From Nitrospirota bacterium (GTDB lineage: Bacteria; Nitrospirota; Thermodesulfovibrionia; Thermodesulfovibrionales; JdFR-85): a stretch of 44,356 nucleotides of DNA. The number at the start of each line of letters is the position of its first letter. Within the stretch, counting starts at the first letter, position 1. Below, piece by piece: positions 24,750 to 32,172 of the stretch. The notes under the pieces are model-generated. The model did no database searches. It was given only the letters and a program-made list of their open reading frames with translations, and had not been told where the DNA came from. The DNA is taken from positions 1 to 44,356 of the forward strand of contig WGEZ01000098.1 in NCBI GenBank assembly GCA_015492515.1, written 5' to 3'. A program made the translations under genes and the position numbers.

Positions 24750-26231
24750 ATGATGCCGTCCAGAGACTCGTCCTTCAGGGGGCTTCCTCCCCGGAAACGA
24801 TTCACCCTCACGCTGCTGCTCATATACGCCGTCTCCCTCCCCGTGATATCCGGCATATCCTACTATATCCTGAGAGACAGCGCAGTCAGGGACGCCTACA
24901 GGACGGCGAGGCTGTACCTCTCCACCATCGAGGCGGCAAGGCATTATGTGGGCACGGAGCTGAGGCCTGTGCTCTATGAAGAACTCCCCGAGAGGTTCAT
25001 AGTGGAGGGGATGTCGAGGTCTTACATCGCGAGAAAGATCGCGAAGAAGGTGCTGGAAGAGCTGCCGGGATACCGGTACAAGAACGCCTCTTTGAATCCG
25101 AGAAACCCTCAGAGTGCTGCAGATGATTTCGAGAGGGATATAATCGAGAGGTTCAAGGAGTCGAAGCAGAGGGAGTGGAGGGGGGTCAGGTCCGATGATG
25201 GACGCCAGTACTATGTGATTGCCCTTCCTGGCAAGCCCGTCAAGGAGAGCTGCCTCCGCTGTCACGGAGACCCGGAGACGGCCCCAAGAGAGATCGTTGA
25301 ACGATACGGCACCAAGGCGGGCTTCTACATGAAGGTCGGTGATATAGTGGATGCTCTCTTCGTCTACACCCCGATAAACGTCCCCCTCAAGAGAGCGAGA
25401 GATACGGTGATGGTGTTTATTGGTATGTACACCGTCTTCTTTGCGTTTATCTTCGTCGTGATCGACAGGAGGTTCCGCTGGTTCTACCAGAGGATCGAGT
25501 CCGACAAGAAGGAGATAGAGGAGTTCAACAGGGAGATCCTCAACCTGAACCAGGAGATGGAGGCCATCGTGGCGGAGAGGACGACGGGGATGATCGGCCT
25601 GAGGGTCGCCGACCGCATCAGGAACCCCCTCACGATCATCGGCGGGCTCTGCAACCGCCTCCTGAGGAAGGAGCTGGATGAAGAGACCCGCGAGAAGATC
25701 AGCAGCATCCTCCTGGAATGCAGAAAGATGGAGGAGATGATCGAGGAGTTCGACGCGCTCGTCAAGACCAAGCGGTTCCTCTTCAAACGTGTCGATCTCA
25801 ACGAGATCATCCTCTCCGTCGTCCGGCCCCTGGAGAAGGAGATCAGGGAACGGGGGATCGAACTCACCCTCCGGCTTCAGGACAAACCCCTTCTGATGAA
25901 CGCCAACAGGCAGCTTCTGAAGATCGCCGTCGGACACCTCCTGAGCAACGCCATCGACGCCTCATCCCCCGGAGACAGGATAAGCATCGTCACAGCCGCC
26001 GAGGATGACAGGATCGTCCTGGAGATCAGCGATACCGGGGTCGGCATATCCGAGGAGGACCTGCCCAGGATATTCAACCCCTTCTTCAGCACCAAGGAAC
26101 GTATCGGGATGGGGCTGCCCCTCGTGAAACAGGTGGTGGACGAGCACCTCGGTGAGATAACCGTTGAGAGTGAACTATACAAGGGCACTACCTTCCGTAT
26201 AACCTTTCCCCGCTACTGGATCGGGGAGTAG
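24750..26231 (+). CDS. Membrane heme-c sensor (DUF3365/Tll0287-like) with kinase domain lacking the phospho-accepting His
   Basis: 493 residues. Membrane span about 17-42; periplasmic DUF3365/Tll0287-like domain (about 45-215) with a heme-c attachment site CLRCHGDP (C168, C171, H172); second span about 220-245; coiled coil; then a HisKA-like helix and a HATPase domain (LLSNAIDASS, DTGVGISEEDLPRIFNPFFSTKE, MGLPLVKQVV). Where kinases have A-H-E-I-R-N-P, this protein reads A-D-R-I-R-N-P with Asp at residue 288, so it cannot autophosphorylate in the usual way. It may bind ATP and modulate, or transphosphorylate within, the next sensor. The gene follows pheS closely and begins the sensor-sensor-regulator set. 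Heme sensing of redox state or gas is an inference. Confidence 0.88.
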   Translation: MMPSRDSSFRGLPPRKRFTLTLLLIYAVSLPVISGISYYILRDSAVRDAYRTARLYLSTIEAARHYVGTELRPVLYEELPERFIVEGMSRSYIARKIAKKVLEELPGYRYKNASLNPRNPQSAADDFERDIIERFKESKQREWRGVRSDDGRQYYVIALPGKPVKESCLRCHGDPETAPREIVERYGTKAGFYMKVGDIVDALFVYTPINVPLKRARDTVMVFIGMYTVFFAFIFVVIDRRFRWFYQRIESDKKEIEEFNREILNLNQEMEAIVAERTTGMIGLRVADRIRNPLTIIGGLCNRLLRKELDEETREKISSILLECRKMEEMIEEFDALVKTKRFLFKRVDLNEIILSVVRPLEKEIRERGIELTLRLQDKPLLMNANRQLLKIAVGHLLSNAIDASSPGDRISIVTAAEDDRIVLEISDTGVGISEEDLPRIFNPFFSTKERIGMGLPLVKQVVDEHLGEITVESELYKGTTFRITFPRYWIGE

Positions 26232-26356
26232 AGCGGGCAGGCAGGGACGCCAGGGTGTATTCTTTCCGGTCTTTTGCTGTAAAATAATACTGTGGCTCCG
26301 GACCCTTCATCCCGTATGTGAGGGCGGCGAAGAGATGGAGCGGGACCGGATGTGAC

Positions 26357-28339
26357 ATGCCTATGAGGCGGTTCACCATGAAGCCGCATATCAAGATAAA
26401 GCCCCTGAGAGATCTGACCCTCACCACGAAGTTCCTCTTCGGGATAGGGATAATCATCATCTTCTTCTGGTTCATCTTCAACATCCTCATCTATCTGAAC
26501 CTCAAGGACAACAGCATCCAGCAGACGAGGGAGAAGACGGAGATGCTCTTCTCCCATATCCAGGCGACCGTCGAGTACATCAGAAAGCAGCTCAGACCGA
26601 AGCTCTTCCATATCCTTCCGGGAGACGTCTTTGTTCCGGAGGCGATGTCGGTCTCCTTCATGAACAAGGAGATAATGTCCGAGTTCAAGAAGGGCTTCCC
26701 GGACTTCGAGTACCGGAGGGTCGCGATCAATCCCATGAATCCAGAGAACAGACCCAACGAGGTGGAGCTCGAGTATATCGCCAAGTTCAGGGAAGGGAAG
26801 ATCGATACCATCAAGGGGGTGGTCGAGCGGGGGGGTAAGAAGTACTTCCTCCACGCAAGACCGATAGTGGTGGAGGCCGAGTGCCTCTCCTGCCACGGTG
26901 ATCCCACGAAGGCGCCGGTGACGCTCGTGAACATGTACGGTGACAGGGGGGGGTTCAACAGAAAAGCGGGGGAGATAATCGGCGTGGAGTCGATAACCAT
27001 CCCCGTGGACGAGACGTTTTATCAGATAAAGGGGCTGGTCTTCTCCATGTTTCTCTCCGGGATCGTGGGTGTCTTCTTCCTCTTCGCCGCCGTCAACTAC
27101 TACATTAGCATCGTCGCCATAAGGCCCATAAAGAGCGTCAGCGGTTTCTTCAAGTCCGTCGTCGAGGGGAAGAAGGACCTGGAGACGCGCTTCATGGTGA
27201 GGAGCAAGGACGAGATCGGTGAGCTCGCCGAGTCCTTCAACCAGATGATGGAGTACCTGAAGAACTCGCAGGAGCAGCTCAGGAACTCGGAGAAGAAGTA
27301 CAGGAGGATCTTCGAGGGATCGAAGGACACCATCCTCGTGGCCGACTGTGAGGGGTTCATCCAGGACATCAACCAGTCGGGCCTGGAGCTCTTCGGCTGC
27401 AAGGACAGGTCGAGGCTTATCAACGAAAGGACCCTGTACGACCTGTTCACGGAGAAGAACCACTACGCCGAATTCCTGAAAAAGATGGAGGGGAACGGCT
27501 ATGTGAGGGAGTACGAGACGCAGCTGAAGGGTGTCGACGGGAGGGTGGTGGACGTCCTCATAACGGCGAACTTCCGGAGGGACGAGGACAACAGGATATG
27601 CGGGTACGAGGCGATCATCAAGGACATAACGGAATGGAAGAGGGTGCAGGAGCAGCTGAAGGAGGCGGACAGGCTCACATCGATAGGCCAGCTCGCCGCC
27701 GGCCTCGCCCATGAGATAAACAACCCCCTCGGTATCATCATGGGCTACACGGGGATACTGCTGAAGGAGGTCGGTGAGGACAGCCCCATCAGGCCTGACC
27801 TCGAGGTGATAAACCGGAACACCGAGGCCTGCAAGAGGATCGTCGAGGACCTGCTGAAGTTCTCCCGGAGGACGGAGACGAGGCCGGAGCCCCACGACAT
27901 AAACAGCCTGATCGAGGAATGCCTCGAGCTCTTCTCCTACAGGTTCGATGAAAAGGGCATCGGGGTCGAGAGGCGGTACGATGAAGGCATGCCGGAGATC
28001 ATGGTGGACGCCGAAAAGATGAGGCAGGTGCTCATAAACATACTGATGAACGCCTATCAGGCGGTGGATGCCGGAGGGTCGATCGCTGTCGAGACCGCTG
28101 TGGAGAAGGAGGACGGAAGGGTCGTAGTATCGATCAGCGACAACGGCTGCGGCATCCCGGAGGAGATAAAGGGCCGTGTCTTCGAGCCCTTCTTCACCAC
28201 CAAGGAACCGGGAGAGGGGACGGGGCTCGGCCTCTCGGTCAGCTACGGGATCGTGAAGGAGCACGGCGGAGAGATCACGGTGGAATCCACGGAGGGCAGG
28301 GGCAGCACCTTCTCGATCCATCTGCCCCTGAGGGCCTGA
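26357..28339 (+). CDS. Heme-c sensor histidine kinase (DUF3365-HAMP-PAS-HisKA-HATPase)
   Basis: About 660 residues. A first span is near 20-45, then a periplasmic DUF3365-like domain with heme-c motif CLSCHGDP (C176, C179, H180), a second span about 225-250, HAMP, PAS (about 310-430), and a HisKA domain with H452 in LAHEINNPLGI. The HATPase domain has [33 protein letters not shown] and GTGLGLSVSYG. All catalytic motifs are intact, unlike the preceding sensor, with which it shares the periplasmic domain. The start is uncertain: ATG 26357, ATG 26363, ATG 26378 and GTG 26318 are in frame and none has a strong ribosome site. The regulator gene follows after 4 nt and is the obvious phosphorylation partner. 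Confidence 0.91.
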   Translation: MPMRRFTMKPHIKIKPLRDLTLTTKFLFGIGIIIIFFWFIFNILIYLNLKDNSIQQTREKTEMLFSHIQATVEYIRKQLRPKLFHILPGDVFVPEAMSVSFMNKEIMSEFKKGFPDFEYRRVAINPMNPENRPNEVELEYIAKFREGKIDTIKGVVERGGKKYFLHARPIVVEAECLSCHGDPTKAPVTLVNMYGDRGGFNRKAGEIIGVESITIPVDETFYQIKGLVFSMFLSGIVGVFFLFAAVNYYISIVAIRPIKSVSGFFKSVVEGKKDLETRFMVRSKDEIGELAESFNQMMEYLKNSQEQLRNSEKKYRRIFEGSKDTILVADCEGFIQDINQSGLELFGCKDRSRLINERTLYDLFTEKNHYAEFLKKMEGNGYVREYETQLKGVDGRVVDVLITANFRRDEDNRICGYEAIIKDITEWKRVQEQLKEADRLTSIGQLAAGLAHEINNPLGIIMGYTGILLKEVGEDSPIRPDLEVINRNTEACKRIVEDLLKFSRRTETRPEPHDINSLIEECLELFSYRFDEKGIGVERRYDEGMPEIMVDAEKMRQVLINILMNAYQAVDAGGSIAVETAVEKEDGRVVVSISDNGCGIPEEIKGRVFEPFFTTKEPGEGTGLGLSVSYGIVKEHGGEITVESTEGRGSTFSIHLPLRA

Positions 28340-28343
28340 GCTT

Positions 28344-29759
28344 ATGAACACCGGAGAGAAGATACTCATCGTCGACGACAAGAAGGACATGGTCTCCTTC
28401 CTGAAGAGGCTCGTCTCCTCGGAGCTGGGTATGGCTGTGAAGGGGGCGACCTCAGGCGAGGAGGCCCTCAAGGAGCTCTCCCAGAACAGCGTCGATGTGG
28501 CCGTACTGGACGTCAAGATGCCGGGACAGGACGGGATCAGCCTCCTGAAGGAGATGAAGGCCTTGGACAGGGACCTGGCGGTGATCATCCTGACCGGATA
28601 CGGCACCGTGGAGATGGCCGTGGAGGCCCTCAAGCTCGGTGCATACGACTTCCTCACCAAGCCTGTGAACAACGAGAGGCTCATCCACACCATAAAAAGG
28701 GCGCTCGAGTACAGGAGGGTGGTGAGGGAGAAGACCCTCCTGGAGGAGAAGATAAAGTACGCCCTCCTGAAGAGGGAACTGATCGGCGAGAGTCCGGCCA
28801 TGAAGGAGCTCCTCGACGACATCAGGGCCGTTGCCGAGACGGAGGAGACGGTCCTCATAACCGGTGAGACGGGCACGGGCAAGGAGCTCGCCGCGAGGAC
28901 GATACACAGGCTGAGCAGGAGGCAGAAGGGTCCCTTCATCGCCGTCAACTGCCCCGCGATACCCGAGTCGATCCTGGAGAGCGAACTCTTCGGATACAAG
29001 AAGGGCGCCTTCACATCGGCCACGAGCGACAAGAAGGGGCTCTTCGAGGCCGCTGACGGCGGCACCATCTTCCTTGACGAGATAGGCGACATCCCCCTCG
29101 CCGTACAGACCAAACTCCTGAGGGTCCTCCAGGAGAAGGAGTTCAAGCCCCTCGGTGACACCGAGAGCGTCAGGGTGGATGTGCGGGTCATAGCGTCGAC
29201 CAATCAGGACCTGGAGAGGAAGATCGAGGAAGGGCAGTTCAGGGACGATCTCTACTACAGGCTGAACGTGATCACCGTCAGGATGCCCTCCCTTAACGAG
29301 CGTCTCGAGGACATCCCCCTCCTGGCCGAACACTTCCTGAGGGAGTATTCGATCGAGTACGGGAAGGATCACATAACGGGGTTCTCTGATGACGCCCTCT
29401 CCTACCTCACCAGCAGGAACTGGAAGGGCAACGTCAGGGAGCTCCAGAACACCATAAAGCGGGCGGTCATCTTCTCCAAGGACCCCGTGATAGAGGCATC
29501 CACCCTCGAGAGCCCGACGAGGGCACCAGCCCCGAGCGACGACCTCTTCAGCCACTTCCTCTCACTGGACTACAAGACGGCGAGGAGCAAGGCCCTCGAA
29601 CACTTCACCGTCAGCTACATCAAGAACCTCCTGGAGAAGACGGGTGGAAACGTCACCCATGCCGCGCGGATGGCGGGGATAGAGAGGCAGTCCTTACAGC
29701 ACCTCCTGAGGAAGTACAACATCGAACCCCGGGAGTTCAAAGAAAACGGCGCTCCCTGA
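28344..29759 (+). CDS. NtrC-family sigma-54-dependent response regulator
   Basis: 471 residues: a receiver domain with phospho-acceptor D56 (VLDVKMPGQDG) and switch Lys (LTKPVN); an AAA+ domain with Walker A GETGTGKE (174-181), the sigma-54 contact loop reading GAFTSA (221-226; consensus GAFTGA), Walker B FLDEIGD and arginine fingers in the FRDDLYYRLNV region; and a Fis-type helix-turn-helix (NVTHAARMAGIERQSLQHLLRKYNI). It activates sigma-54 RNA polymerase from distant sites. Two sensors lie directly upstream. The first intergenic region downstream has paired dyads and a sigma-54 promoter, which makes the transporter genes its likely targets. Confidence 0.95.
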   Translation: MNTGEKILIVDDKKDMVSFLKRLVSSELGMAVKGATSGEEALKELSQNSVDVAVLDVKMPGQDGISLLKEMKALDRDLAVIILTGYGTVEMAVEALKLGAYDFLTKPVNNERLIHTIKRALEYRRVVREKTLLEEKIKYALLKRELIGESPAMKELLDDIRAVAETEETVLITGETGTGKELAARTIHRLSRRQKGPFIAVNCPAIPESILESELFGYKKGAFTSATSDKKGLFEAADGGTIFLDEIGDIPLAVQTKLLRVLQEKEFKPLGDTESVRVDVRVIASTNQDLERKIEEGQFRDDLYYRLNVITVRMPSLNERLEDIPLLAEHFLREYSIEYGKDHITGFSDDALSYLTSRNWKGNVRELQNTIKRAVIFSKDPVIEASTLESPTRAPAPSDDLFSHFLSLDYKTARSKALEHFTVSYIKNLLEKTGGNVTHAARMAGIERQSLQHLLRKYNIEPREFKENGAP

Positions 29760-29791: not shown

Positions 29792-29832
29792 GGTGCAAAA
29801 AGAGCTTTGCAGTGCAATAGAAATTTTGCACC
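29792..29832 (+). promoter_or_regulatory. Tandem dyad enhancer sites, probable regulator-binding UAS
   Basis: Two 18-bp dyads lie side by side: TGCAAA-N6-TTTGCA (29794-29811) and TGCAAT-N6-TTTGCA (29813-29830). The whole block is also one large perfect-armed palindrome, GGTGCAAAA...TTTTGCACC, centred on 29812, with an inner TTGCA-G-TGCAA. The layout resembles NtrC-type enhancer pairs and lies about 105-125 bp upstream of the sigma-54 promoter. Confidence 0.75.
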
Positions 29833-29917: not shown

Positions 29918-29933
29918 TGGCATAATGATTGCT
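29918..29933 (+). promoter_or_regulatory. Sigma-54 (-24/-12) promoter
   Basis: TGGCATAATGATTGCT matches the consensus TGGCACG-N4-TTGCW with correct GG to GC spacing. The predicted transcription start is near 29945, upstream of the leader ORF and the transporter genes. A sigma-54 activator gene ends 158 bp upstream. Confidence 0.85.
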
Positions 29934-30002
29934 CTTAAATCCACTCGATCCGGTTTGCTTCACATCCGTTCATGCCACGCACATACGGGGAGGAGGTGAT
30001 AG

Positions 30003-30029
30003 ATGGAGAAAGTCTGCAAGGGGGAGTAG
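30003..30029 (+). CDS. Candidate 8-codon leader peptide (MEKVCKGE)
   Basis: ATG followed by seven sense codons and TAG, with a perfect AGGAGG (29991-29996) exactly 6 nt upstream. It lies between the sigma-54 promoter and the first structural gene. It could be a regulatory leader or a vestigial start. An overlapping 22-codon frame from ATG 29972 has no ribosome site. The strong ribosome site is the only evidence for translation. Confidence 0.4.
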   Translation: MEKVCKGE

Positions 30030-30064: not shown

Positions 30065-30256
30065 ATGGAGGAGGAAAGAAAGGCTGCAGCAGGTACGGGT
30101 TCCCTGACCGGTGAGGCCCTCGAGGCGGAAGACGTACTTGCCGGGGCGGAGCCATGGGAGCCGATCGAGACGAAACTGGTTCTCTGGTCCTTTGTTATAG
30201 CGATCATCGCGCTGGTAATCGGTCTGTTCGTCGTGCCGACCTCGGTCCTGCACTGA
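30065..30256 (+). CDS. Small single-span membrane protein next to the YeiH-family transporter
   Basis: 63 residues: an acidic cytoplasmic N-terminus (about 1-35, ending in PWEPIETK) and one membrane span (LVLWSFVIAIIALVIGLFVV, about 38-57). ATG with AGAGGAGGTAGAAAG upstream. It is the first gene after the sigma-54 promoter and probably co-transcribed with the next two. Possibly an accessory subunit of the transporter. No named family recognised. Confidence 0.75.
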   Translation: MEEERKAAAGTGSLTGEALEAEDVLAGAEPWEPIETKLVLWSFVIAIIALVIGLFVVPTSVLH

Positions 30257-30266
30257 GGATACACCC

Positions 30267-30509
30267 GTGGAACTGGTGATCAGACATAACGGCAGAGACT
30301 GGGTGGTTGAGGGTGACGGTCTGAGCCTCTCGGCCCCGACCCTTGAGGAGCTCGACCGGAAGGTGGGCACGACCATGAGGGAGAAGGGGTTGATTAAGGA
30401 GGGGGAGAAGACGGAGGTCTTCATGGCCTTCGACAACTCGACCATCCCGGAGTGGATCCGTCAGTATGCCCAGCACTACTTCAACAGGATCCTTGTGGTG
30501 CAGGGTTAG
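30267..30509 (+). CDS. 80-aa soluble protein, DUF5395-like
   Basis: Starts at GTG, 10 nt after the preceding stop, with GAGGA upstream. The sequence (VIRHNGRDWVVEGDGLSL, TLEELDRKV, VFMAFDNSTIPEWIRQYAQHYFNRILVV) resembles what I recall as DUF5395; I am not certain of the number. It has no signal peptide or membrane span, so it is cytoplasmic. The invariant-looking DNSTIPEWIRQYAQHYFNR block suggests a binding surface. Its position directly before a YeiH-type transporter suggests a regulatory or accessory part of that system. Confidence 0.75.
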   Translation: MELVIRHNGRDWVVEGDGLSLSAPTLEELDRKVGTTMREKGLIKEGEKTEVFMAFDNSTIPEWIRQYAQHYFNRILVVQG

Positions 30510-30576: not shown

Positions 30577-32172
30577 ATGACAGAGAGAAAATGGTATACA
30601 GGGATGACCACCCAGGAAGACTGGTGGGCTGTCTGGCTGGGTGTCGGTTTCTTCTTCCTGTCTCTATTTAACATCGCAGGGATCGACCTCGTGGGCTGGA
30701 TCACCTACCCGACTAAGTGGGTGTTCAGTGTGCCAGAGGGCGGTAAGGGTGCCGTCGGGCACGCGTTTTATGCCCTCGGCAAGAAGTACAGCGTGACCGC
30801 CAAGGGCTTCTACAAGGGCCTCGGCTGGTGGAGCGTGCTCTGGACCTATGTGGTCTTCACCATCGCCACCTGTATCGGTGCGGCCTTCATGAAGTGGGAC
30901 CTCAAGAGGTTCTTCGTGGGCTGGACGCTCATCTACTTCATGACCATCGCCACCTGGTTCATCGGCCACCACGCATTCATCGCCGCCAACAAGACCAACA
31001 TGCACAAGTACGGGCTGAGCTTCGCCCTCTCCCTCGGTGGAGGCGGTTCGTTCATCCTGGCACTGATCATCGGACTGATCATCGGGAACTTCTTCAAGGG
31101 GTTTGCGAACTACCTGAGTGTGGCGGCAAAGCCTGAGTGGTACATCAAGACCGCCATCGTCACCCTCGGTGTGAAGCTCGGTTACCTGCCCATAAAGCTG
31201 GCCGGCATGTCCCAGAAGCTGGGCAAGAAGGCGGCGGAGCTGACCTTCGAGATGTTCTTCGCGGGCGCCATGGCCACCATCGTGGCGTACATGGTCTTCT
31301 GGCCCGGTGTGTACATCATCTCGAGGCTGATATTCAAGCTGCCCCGCAAGACAGCGGCCGTCCTCGGTTCCGGCATCTCCATCTGCGGCGTCTCTGCTGC
31401 TGTTGCTACAGGTGGCGCTGTTAAGGCCAAGCCTGTTGTATCCATCATGGTCGCTGCTCTTGTCGTTGTATGGGCGGTTATCGAGATGATCATCCTGCCC
31501 GGGTTCTTCACCCATGTGTGGCCCAAGACGGATGATCCCCTTGTGGCCGCCGCCGCAATGGGTTTGGCCGTCAAGACGGACGGCGCGGACGCTGCTGCAG
31601 GCGCCATGATGGACGAGTTCATGCGCACCAAGATAGAGGTGGATACCAACGGTGCGGTGAAGTGGCCTGAGGGTATCATCACCGCCGGTGCAGTCATGAC
31701 CAAGGTCTGGATCGACATGTTCATCGGTGTCTGGGCCTTCGTGCTCGCAATGGTATGGGTCTACCGGATAGAACGACGGCCGGGAGAGAGGGTGCCCGCC
31801 TCAGAGGTCTGGCACAGGTTCCCGAAGTTCGTCATCGGCTACTTCTTCTGCTGGTTCTTCCTCCTCGCCCTGTACTTCGGTCCCGGCAAGGCCGGCGCGC
31901 CTGAGGCAAAGGCCTTCCTCAAGTCCGTCAAGGCCGGTGCGGTGCCTGTAGAGAAGGGTATGCGGAAGCTCTTCTTCATGCTCACCTTCATGAGCCTCGG
32001 GATAATAACGGACTTCAAGAAGCTGAAAGAGGCCCAGTTCGGAAAGATGGTATGGGTCTACTTCGTGGCCCTCTTCCTGTTCATCATCCCCATGGCCATA
32101 ATCATCGCCTACCTCTTCCACCACGGGATGCAGATACCGAACATAGCCGAGTACGTGAAGCCCGGTGCATAG
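30577..32172 (+). CDS. YeiH-family putative sulfate/anion transporter
   Basis: 531 residues, very hydrophobic, with about ten or more membrane spans. The central motif GSGISICGVSAAVATGGAVKAKP is characteristic of the UPF0324/YeiH family (Cons_hypoth698), often labelled a putative sulfate exporter. The protein is longer than typical YeiH (about 350 residues) through an N-terminal addition and inserted hydrophilic parts (about 330-380 and 405-470). ATG 30577 has GGGAGG 7 nt upstream; a TTG at 30574 is less likely. Its position before the sulfate reduction operon supports transport of sulfate, sulfite or a related anion, but direction and substrate are unproven. Transcription from the sigma-54 promoter is likely and ends at 32186-32216. 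Confidence 0.88.
   Translation: MTERKWYTGMTTQEDWWAVWLGVGFFFLSLFNIAGIDLVGWITYPTKWVFSVPEGGKGAVGHAFYALGKKYSVTAKGFYKGLGWWSVLWTYVVFTIATCIGAAFMKWDLKRFFVGWTLIYFMTIATWFIGHHAFIAANKTNMHKYGLSFALSLGGGGSFILALIIGLIIGNFFKGFANYLSVAAKPEWYIKTAIVTLGVKLGYLPIKLAGMSQKLGKKAAELTFEMFFAGAMATIVAYMVFWPGVYIISRLIFKLPRKTAAVLGSGISICGVSAAVATGGAVKAKPVVSIMVAALVVVWAVIEMIILPGFFTHVWPKTDDPLVAAAAMGLAVKTDGADAAAGAMMDEFMRTKIEVDTNGAVKWPEGIITAGAVMTKVWIDMFIGVWAFVLAMVWVYRIERRPGERVPASEVWHRFPKFVIGYFFCWFFLLALYFGPGKAGAPEAKAFLKSVKAGAVPVEKGMRKLFFMLTFMSLGIITDFKKLKEAQFGKMVWVYFVALFLFIIPMAIIIAYLFHHGMQIPNIAEYVKPGA

Follow-up and report, generated by a model that had tools for sequence, protein, structure and literature searches.

The array at positions 29,792-29,832 of the window (the whole 44,356-nt stretch of Nitrospirota DNA that was analysed) very probably consists of two upstream activating sequences through which an NtrC-type response regulator, encoded immediately upstream, would control an operon for a predicted transporter. 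Two 18-bp palindromes make up the array, putative activator site 1 (TGCAAAAAGAGCTTTGCA, 29,794-29,811) and putative activator site 2 (TGCAATAGAAATTTTGCA, 29,813-29,830). Both match TGCAA-N8-TTGCA without mismatch, with their centres 19 bp apart; the remaining matches in the window all carry two mismatches. The first-pass annotation had described the block as two such 18-bp sites and also as a nested dyad centred on a single base, and these descriptions are correct to the base: GGTGCAAAA (29,792-29,800), TTGCA-G-TGCAA (29,807-29,817) and TTTTGCACC (29,824-29,832) share the centre 29,812. Since two adjacent palindromes always create such symmetry about their midpoint, the nested dyad simply follows from the two sites and is no separate feature.

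The surroundings of the array agree with those expected of a sigma-54 enhancer. Downstream, a sigma-54 promoter -24/-12 element (TGGCATAATGATTGCT, 29,918-29,933, + strand) matches TGGCAY-N5-TTGCW perfectly. It lies 87 bp from the second site, and the distance from the array centre to the -24 element is 106 bp, within the 80-200 bp that separate palindromic upstream activating sequences from a -24/-12 promoter. Upstream (28,344-29,759, + strand) is the gene of a response regulator with receiver, sigma-54 AAA+ and Fis-type HTH domains (Pfam PF00072, PF00158 and PF02954), which aligns with the NtrC1 structure 1ny5 at E=1.6e-106. Its score against the ntrC model TIGR01818 (412.8) is below the cut-off of 558.6, and the protein is thus of NtrC type and not NtrC sensu stricto. 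As is expected for an enhancer, an activator carrying both PF00158 and PF02954 is encoded next to the sites, and sigma-54 itself is encoded in the genome (DNA-binding domain E=2.4e-63).

Comparative analysis was based on regulator homologues at E <=1e-120, present in 40 of 199 genomes, and on relatives of the transporter drawn from a wide collection. Thirty regulator loci were retrieved and 28 were counted; L013 was left out because its site is displaced from the regulator by extra DNA, and L032 because site and promoter are both missing there. A site was defined as having at most one mismatch and a spacer of 7 or 8 and as lying near the regulator stop codon, with expectations taken from dinucleotide shuffles. 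Such a site is found in 27 of the 28 loci (0.9 expected) and a tandem pair in 24 (0.005 expected), while a -24/-12 match lies downstream in 26; several loci are closely related, so these counts overstate the independent evidence, although seven or more families of the order are represented. The sites have therefore been kept together with regulator and promoter across many genera, and the first-pass proposal of NtrC-type sites ahead of a sigma-54 promoter is well backed by these numbers. Where both array and promoter were found, the array centre precedes the -24 element by 82-198 bp. The commonest pair spacing is 19 bp (14 of 24 pairs), the others falling within 18-23 bp. The earlier wording was "nearly two helical turns"; 19 bp corresponds to about 1.8 turns, and that this is no whole number counts against the activator-site reading.

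Departures from the common pattern, some of which count against this reading, are of several kinds. Only one clear site is present in L005, L022 and L033, and L018 has only sites with two mismatches. In L010 and L011 the sites are paired, but no -24/-12 element passed the threshold, and L008, L014 and L016 keep the half-sites around an N7 spacer. In many loci site 1 overlaps the TAG stop codon of the regulator, its TTGCA then reading TAGCA. The symmetrised half-site derived from 34 sites is RG-TGCAA followed by A/T-rich bases.

A rival reading is an RNA stem-loop formed by the outer arms at the end of the regulator mRNA, serving as a terminator or processing signal. The arms GGTGCAAAA and TTTTGCACC are able to pair in the predicted fold, but the fold is unexceptional (z = -1.24), the array gives no terminator-like match, and the pair spacing is variable. 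In addition, the site keeps with the promoter where the regulator gene is more distant: in L013 and L035 about 870 bp separate regulator and operon, and the site remains 126 bp before the promoter. Of 17 half-site substitutions none is compensated on the other arm, which argues against a hairpin, and such a pattern would fit base-specific recognition by a protein and not RNA pairing. We consider an RNA element very unlikely.

The adjacent regulator is very probably the protein that binds the sites, and a comparison with more distant lineages points the same way. Loci in Desulfobacterota-type MAGs (L048, L050 and L053) and in Thermodesulfatator (L059) show the same operon and layout, but their sites read TGCYAAC-N4-GTTRGCA, at a spacing of 21 or 19 bp; in these loci, matches to this motif that score 10 or more of 12 are confined to the arrays and their immediate vicinity. 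Desulfacinum (L039) has a weaker pair, 19 bp apart. The recognition-helix residues of the regulators there are ERVSLQKII, KRQSLQKIL and TRAALQKIM, as opposed to mostly ERQSLQHLM. This comparison was made by inspection of few loci, and it supports the adjacent regulator as the probable binder because the site differs in step with the recognition helix although the tandem arrangement persists. Binding by another transcription factor, either a repressor or a co-activator, appears improbable to us. The identity of the binder is deduced from such comparisons, and many dimeric regulators could use palindromes of this type; against this, the array adjoins the regulator gene in nearly all orthologous loci even when a different transporter paralogue lies downstream, the site sequence shifts along with the recognition helix, and a distance of 82-198 bp to the -24 element is typical of sigma-54 activators.

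The exact TGCAA-N8-TTGCA site occurs three times in the 2.19-Mb genome, and the reversed-pattern control not at all. The third exact site is within the coding sequence of a histidine kinase (C134:5641), and one site plus the next half-site occurs only once, at this array. Among 13 perfect TGGCAY-N5-TTGCW elements in the genome, only that at 29,918-29,933 is accompanied, within the retrieved flanks of up to 1.5 kb per side, by a site with no more than one mismatch. The first-pass annotation had named random occurrence across the genome with no link to sigma-54 promoters as the finding that would speak against the motif; what we observe instead is a near-unique exact site 87 bp before a perfect -24/-12 element. 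Its suggestion of a searchable regulon signature is right, yet the regulon looks tiny, with one operon here by exact match. A larger regulon in this genome was considered and rejected, given that the third site is inside a kinase coding sequence and that the other 12 sigma-54 elements have no site with at most one mismatch in their retrieved flanks. Two relatives (G047 and G038) contain a second tandem array with a spacing of 23, about 2.2 kb past the first (L137:5606-5646 as reverse complement; L138:6137-6177). It precedes a further signalling gene, so that the regulon of these relatives possibly includes a second operon.

Across the order, the exact site-plus-half-site pattern is found in 28 of 176 genomes. 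Many of these matches are in simple repeats or distant from the regulator, and for this reason the exact pattern alone is unreliable as a signature beyond this genome. Such matches, together with the 0-10 exact single sites per genome in relatives, are what could be said for chance palindromes without function. That reading is barely credible, being already contradicted by the comparative counts, above all the tandem pair kept in 24 of 28 loci, and by the empty reversed-pattern control in this genome.

The operon that the sites would control consists of three genes on the + strand. The first (30,065-30,256) codes for a 63-aa small protein with one hydrophobic stretch, which had no match in the Pfam scan and in nearly all loci is conserved ahead of the DUF5395 and transporter genes. 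The second (30,267-30,509) codes for a DUF5395 protein (PF17373, E=9.5e-30), a family of which we found no mention in the open-access literature searched. The third (30,577-32,172) codes for a membrane protein, a predicted sulfur-oxyanion transporter, which scores 60 bits against PF03601 (Cons_hypoth698; gathering cut-off 24.5) and 23.4 against the YeiH subfamily model TIGR00698 (cut-off 232.6). Because of the latter score we call it only YeiH-like. In loci of the same family, small protein-DUF5395-transporter is the usual make-up of the operon downstream of the array. In other parts of the order the downstream operon carries a different transporter paralogue (about 27% identical), in some cases with a rhodanese-like protein, so named from its sequence, in front of it. 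The small protein and DUF5395 (30,065-30,509) are also found together with the YeiH-like transporter in sulfate reducers from several phyla. In the leader (29,990-30,029), a strong ribosome-binding-like stretch, GAGGAGGTGA, is followed by a possible 8-codon frame, MEKVCKGE (30,003-30,029), before the true first gene. A AAAGGGGGTGA-like element is present in the leaders of 13 of 28 promoter-bearing loci, mostly those with small protein-DUF5395 operons; this might be a leader peptide or a standby ribosome site.

The closest relatives of the transporter are found in Nitrospirota (Thermodesulfovibrio-type) MAGs, and beyond the operon lie genes for ATP sulfurylase, AprA and QmoC, which belong to dissimilatory sulfate reduction. 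YeiH confers sulfite resistance in Salmonella (PMC12880088), and because of this and the sulfate-reduction neighbourhood we infer that the transported substrate is sulfate or sulfite. The main text of a survey covering sulfate transport in sulfate reducers (PMC5840216) does not name YeiH. The transporter is the only PF03601 protein in the genome.

Between the regulator gene and a second kinase gene lies the gene of a sensor histidine kinase (26,318-28,339, + strand; Pfam matches PF11845, PF00672 and PF00512) with a Tll0287 heme-c domain, HAMP and PAS. Tll0287 (sCache_heme) kinases are recognised by PF11845 together with a CXXCH heme-c motif (PMC12889525); the protein here matches PF11845 at E=2e-37 and contains CLSCH in its translation. 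Such domains carry heme c, one membrane-bound example having NO-sensor properties and another fitting redox sensing (PMC12889525), so that the putative signal would be redox state or NO. The second kinase, just 5' of this conserved one (24,750-26,231), also has a Tll0287 heme-c domain (CLRCH). Most orthologous loci have the kinase next to the regulator, but in three genera no kinase gene adjoins it, and therefore the sensor kinase is no fixed part of the system. In genera with N7 spacers (L043:1-3768, L040:1-2326) the regulator gene stands without a neighbouring kinase, and its sensor has apparently been lost or is encoded at another place in the genome.

NtrC-type activators bind their sites as phosphorylated dimers that assemble into an AAA+ oligomer; through DNA looping this oligomer reaches the sigma-54 closed complex and remodels it. 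By analogy, the heme-c (Tll0287) kinase next door probably phosphorylates the regulator, whose dimers would occupy both abutting sites, presumably cooperatively, and build an active AAA+ oligomer. This oligomer would loop the DNA and open or remodel the closed complex of sigma-54 polymerase at 29,918-29,933, so that the operon of small protein, DUF5395 and YeiH-like transporter would be turned on.

The enteric NtrC enhancer of glnA has the consensus TGCACC-N5-GGTGCA. The array resembles enteric NtrC sites in having two palindromes of about 17-18 bp with TGCA half-sites before a sigma-54 promoter, to be bound, as we infer here, by dimers of an NtrC-type regulator. It differs in that the half-site is RGTGCAA, with the arms reversed in order, in that the sites abut at 19 bp whereas the enteric sites lie further apart, and in that the regulator falls below the NtrC model cut-off. 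In Desulfovibrio vulgaris, activator genes of sigma-54 regulons adjoin the promoters they control and most regulons comprise one to four operons, according to a study of these regulons (PMC4641369); the system here is similar in having its activator gene beside the promoter and a small regulon. The main text of that study contains neither a TGCA motif nor a mention of sulfate transport; a similar motif may be among the logos in its figures (PMC4641369). Like YeiE-YeiH of Salmonella (PMC12880088), the locus would combine a neighbouring dedicated regulator with a YeiH-family membrane protein tied to a sulfur oxyanion. Unlike that system, in which YeiE is LysR-type, control here would rest with sigma-54 and a two-component regulator, and the membrane protein is below the YeiH subfamily cut-off. 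No description of the motif in sulfate reducers was found in the open-access literature searched.

The array is a real regulatory element of a familiar type, very probably sigma-54 activator sites, and the circuit to which it belongs is apparently undescribed, as far as the open-access literature searched shows. A wider reading, which we put forward only tentatively and consider rather doubtful, is that of a dedicated cross-phylum sulfate-respiration cassette in which a heme-c (redox/NO) kinase and a sigma-54 activator, via tandem 18-bp sites, control the YeiH-like protein as a main sulfate/sulfite transporter. Bearing on the role as a main transporter, no SulP permease match was found in this genome, although there are two DASS-family matches. 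The shifted-site arrays in Desulfobacterota-type loci provide a natural case of DNA recognition changing with its site. For uncultured Nitrospirota sulfate reducers, the results supply a site that can be searched for, together with its probable regulator and target, in the control of sulfur-oxyanion transport near sat-apr-qmo. They also open a way to test which signals heme-c Tll0287 kinases respond to and which substrates YeiH-like and DUF5395 proteins carry.
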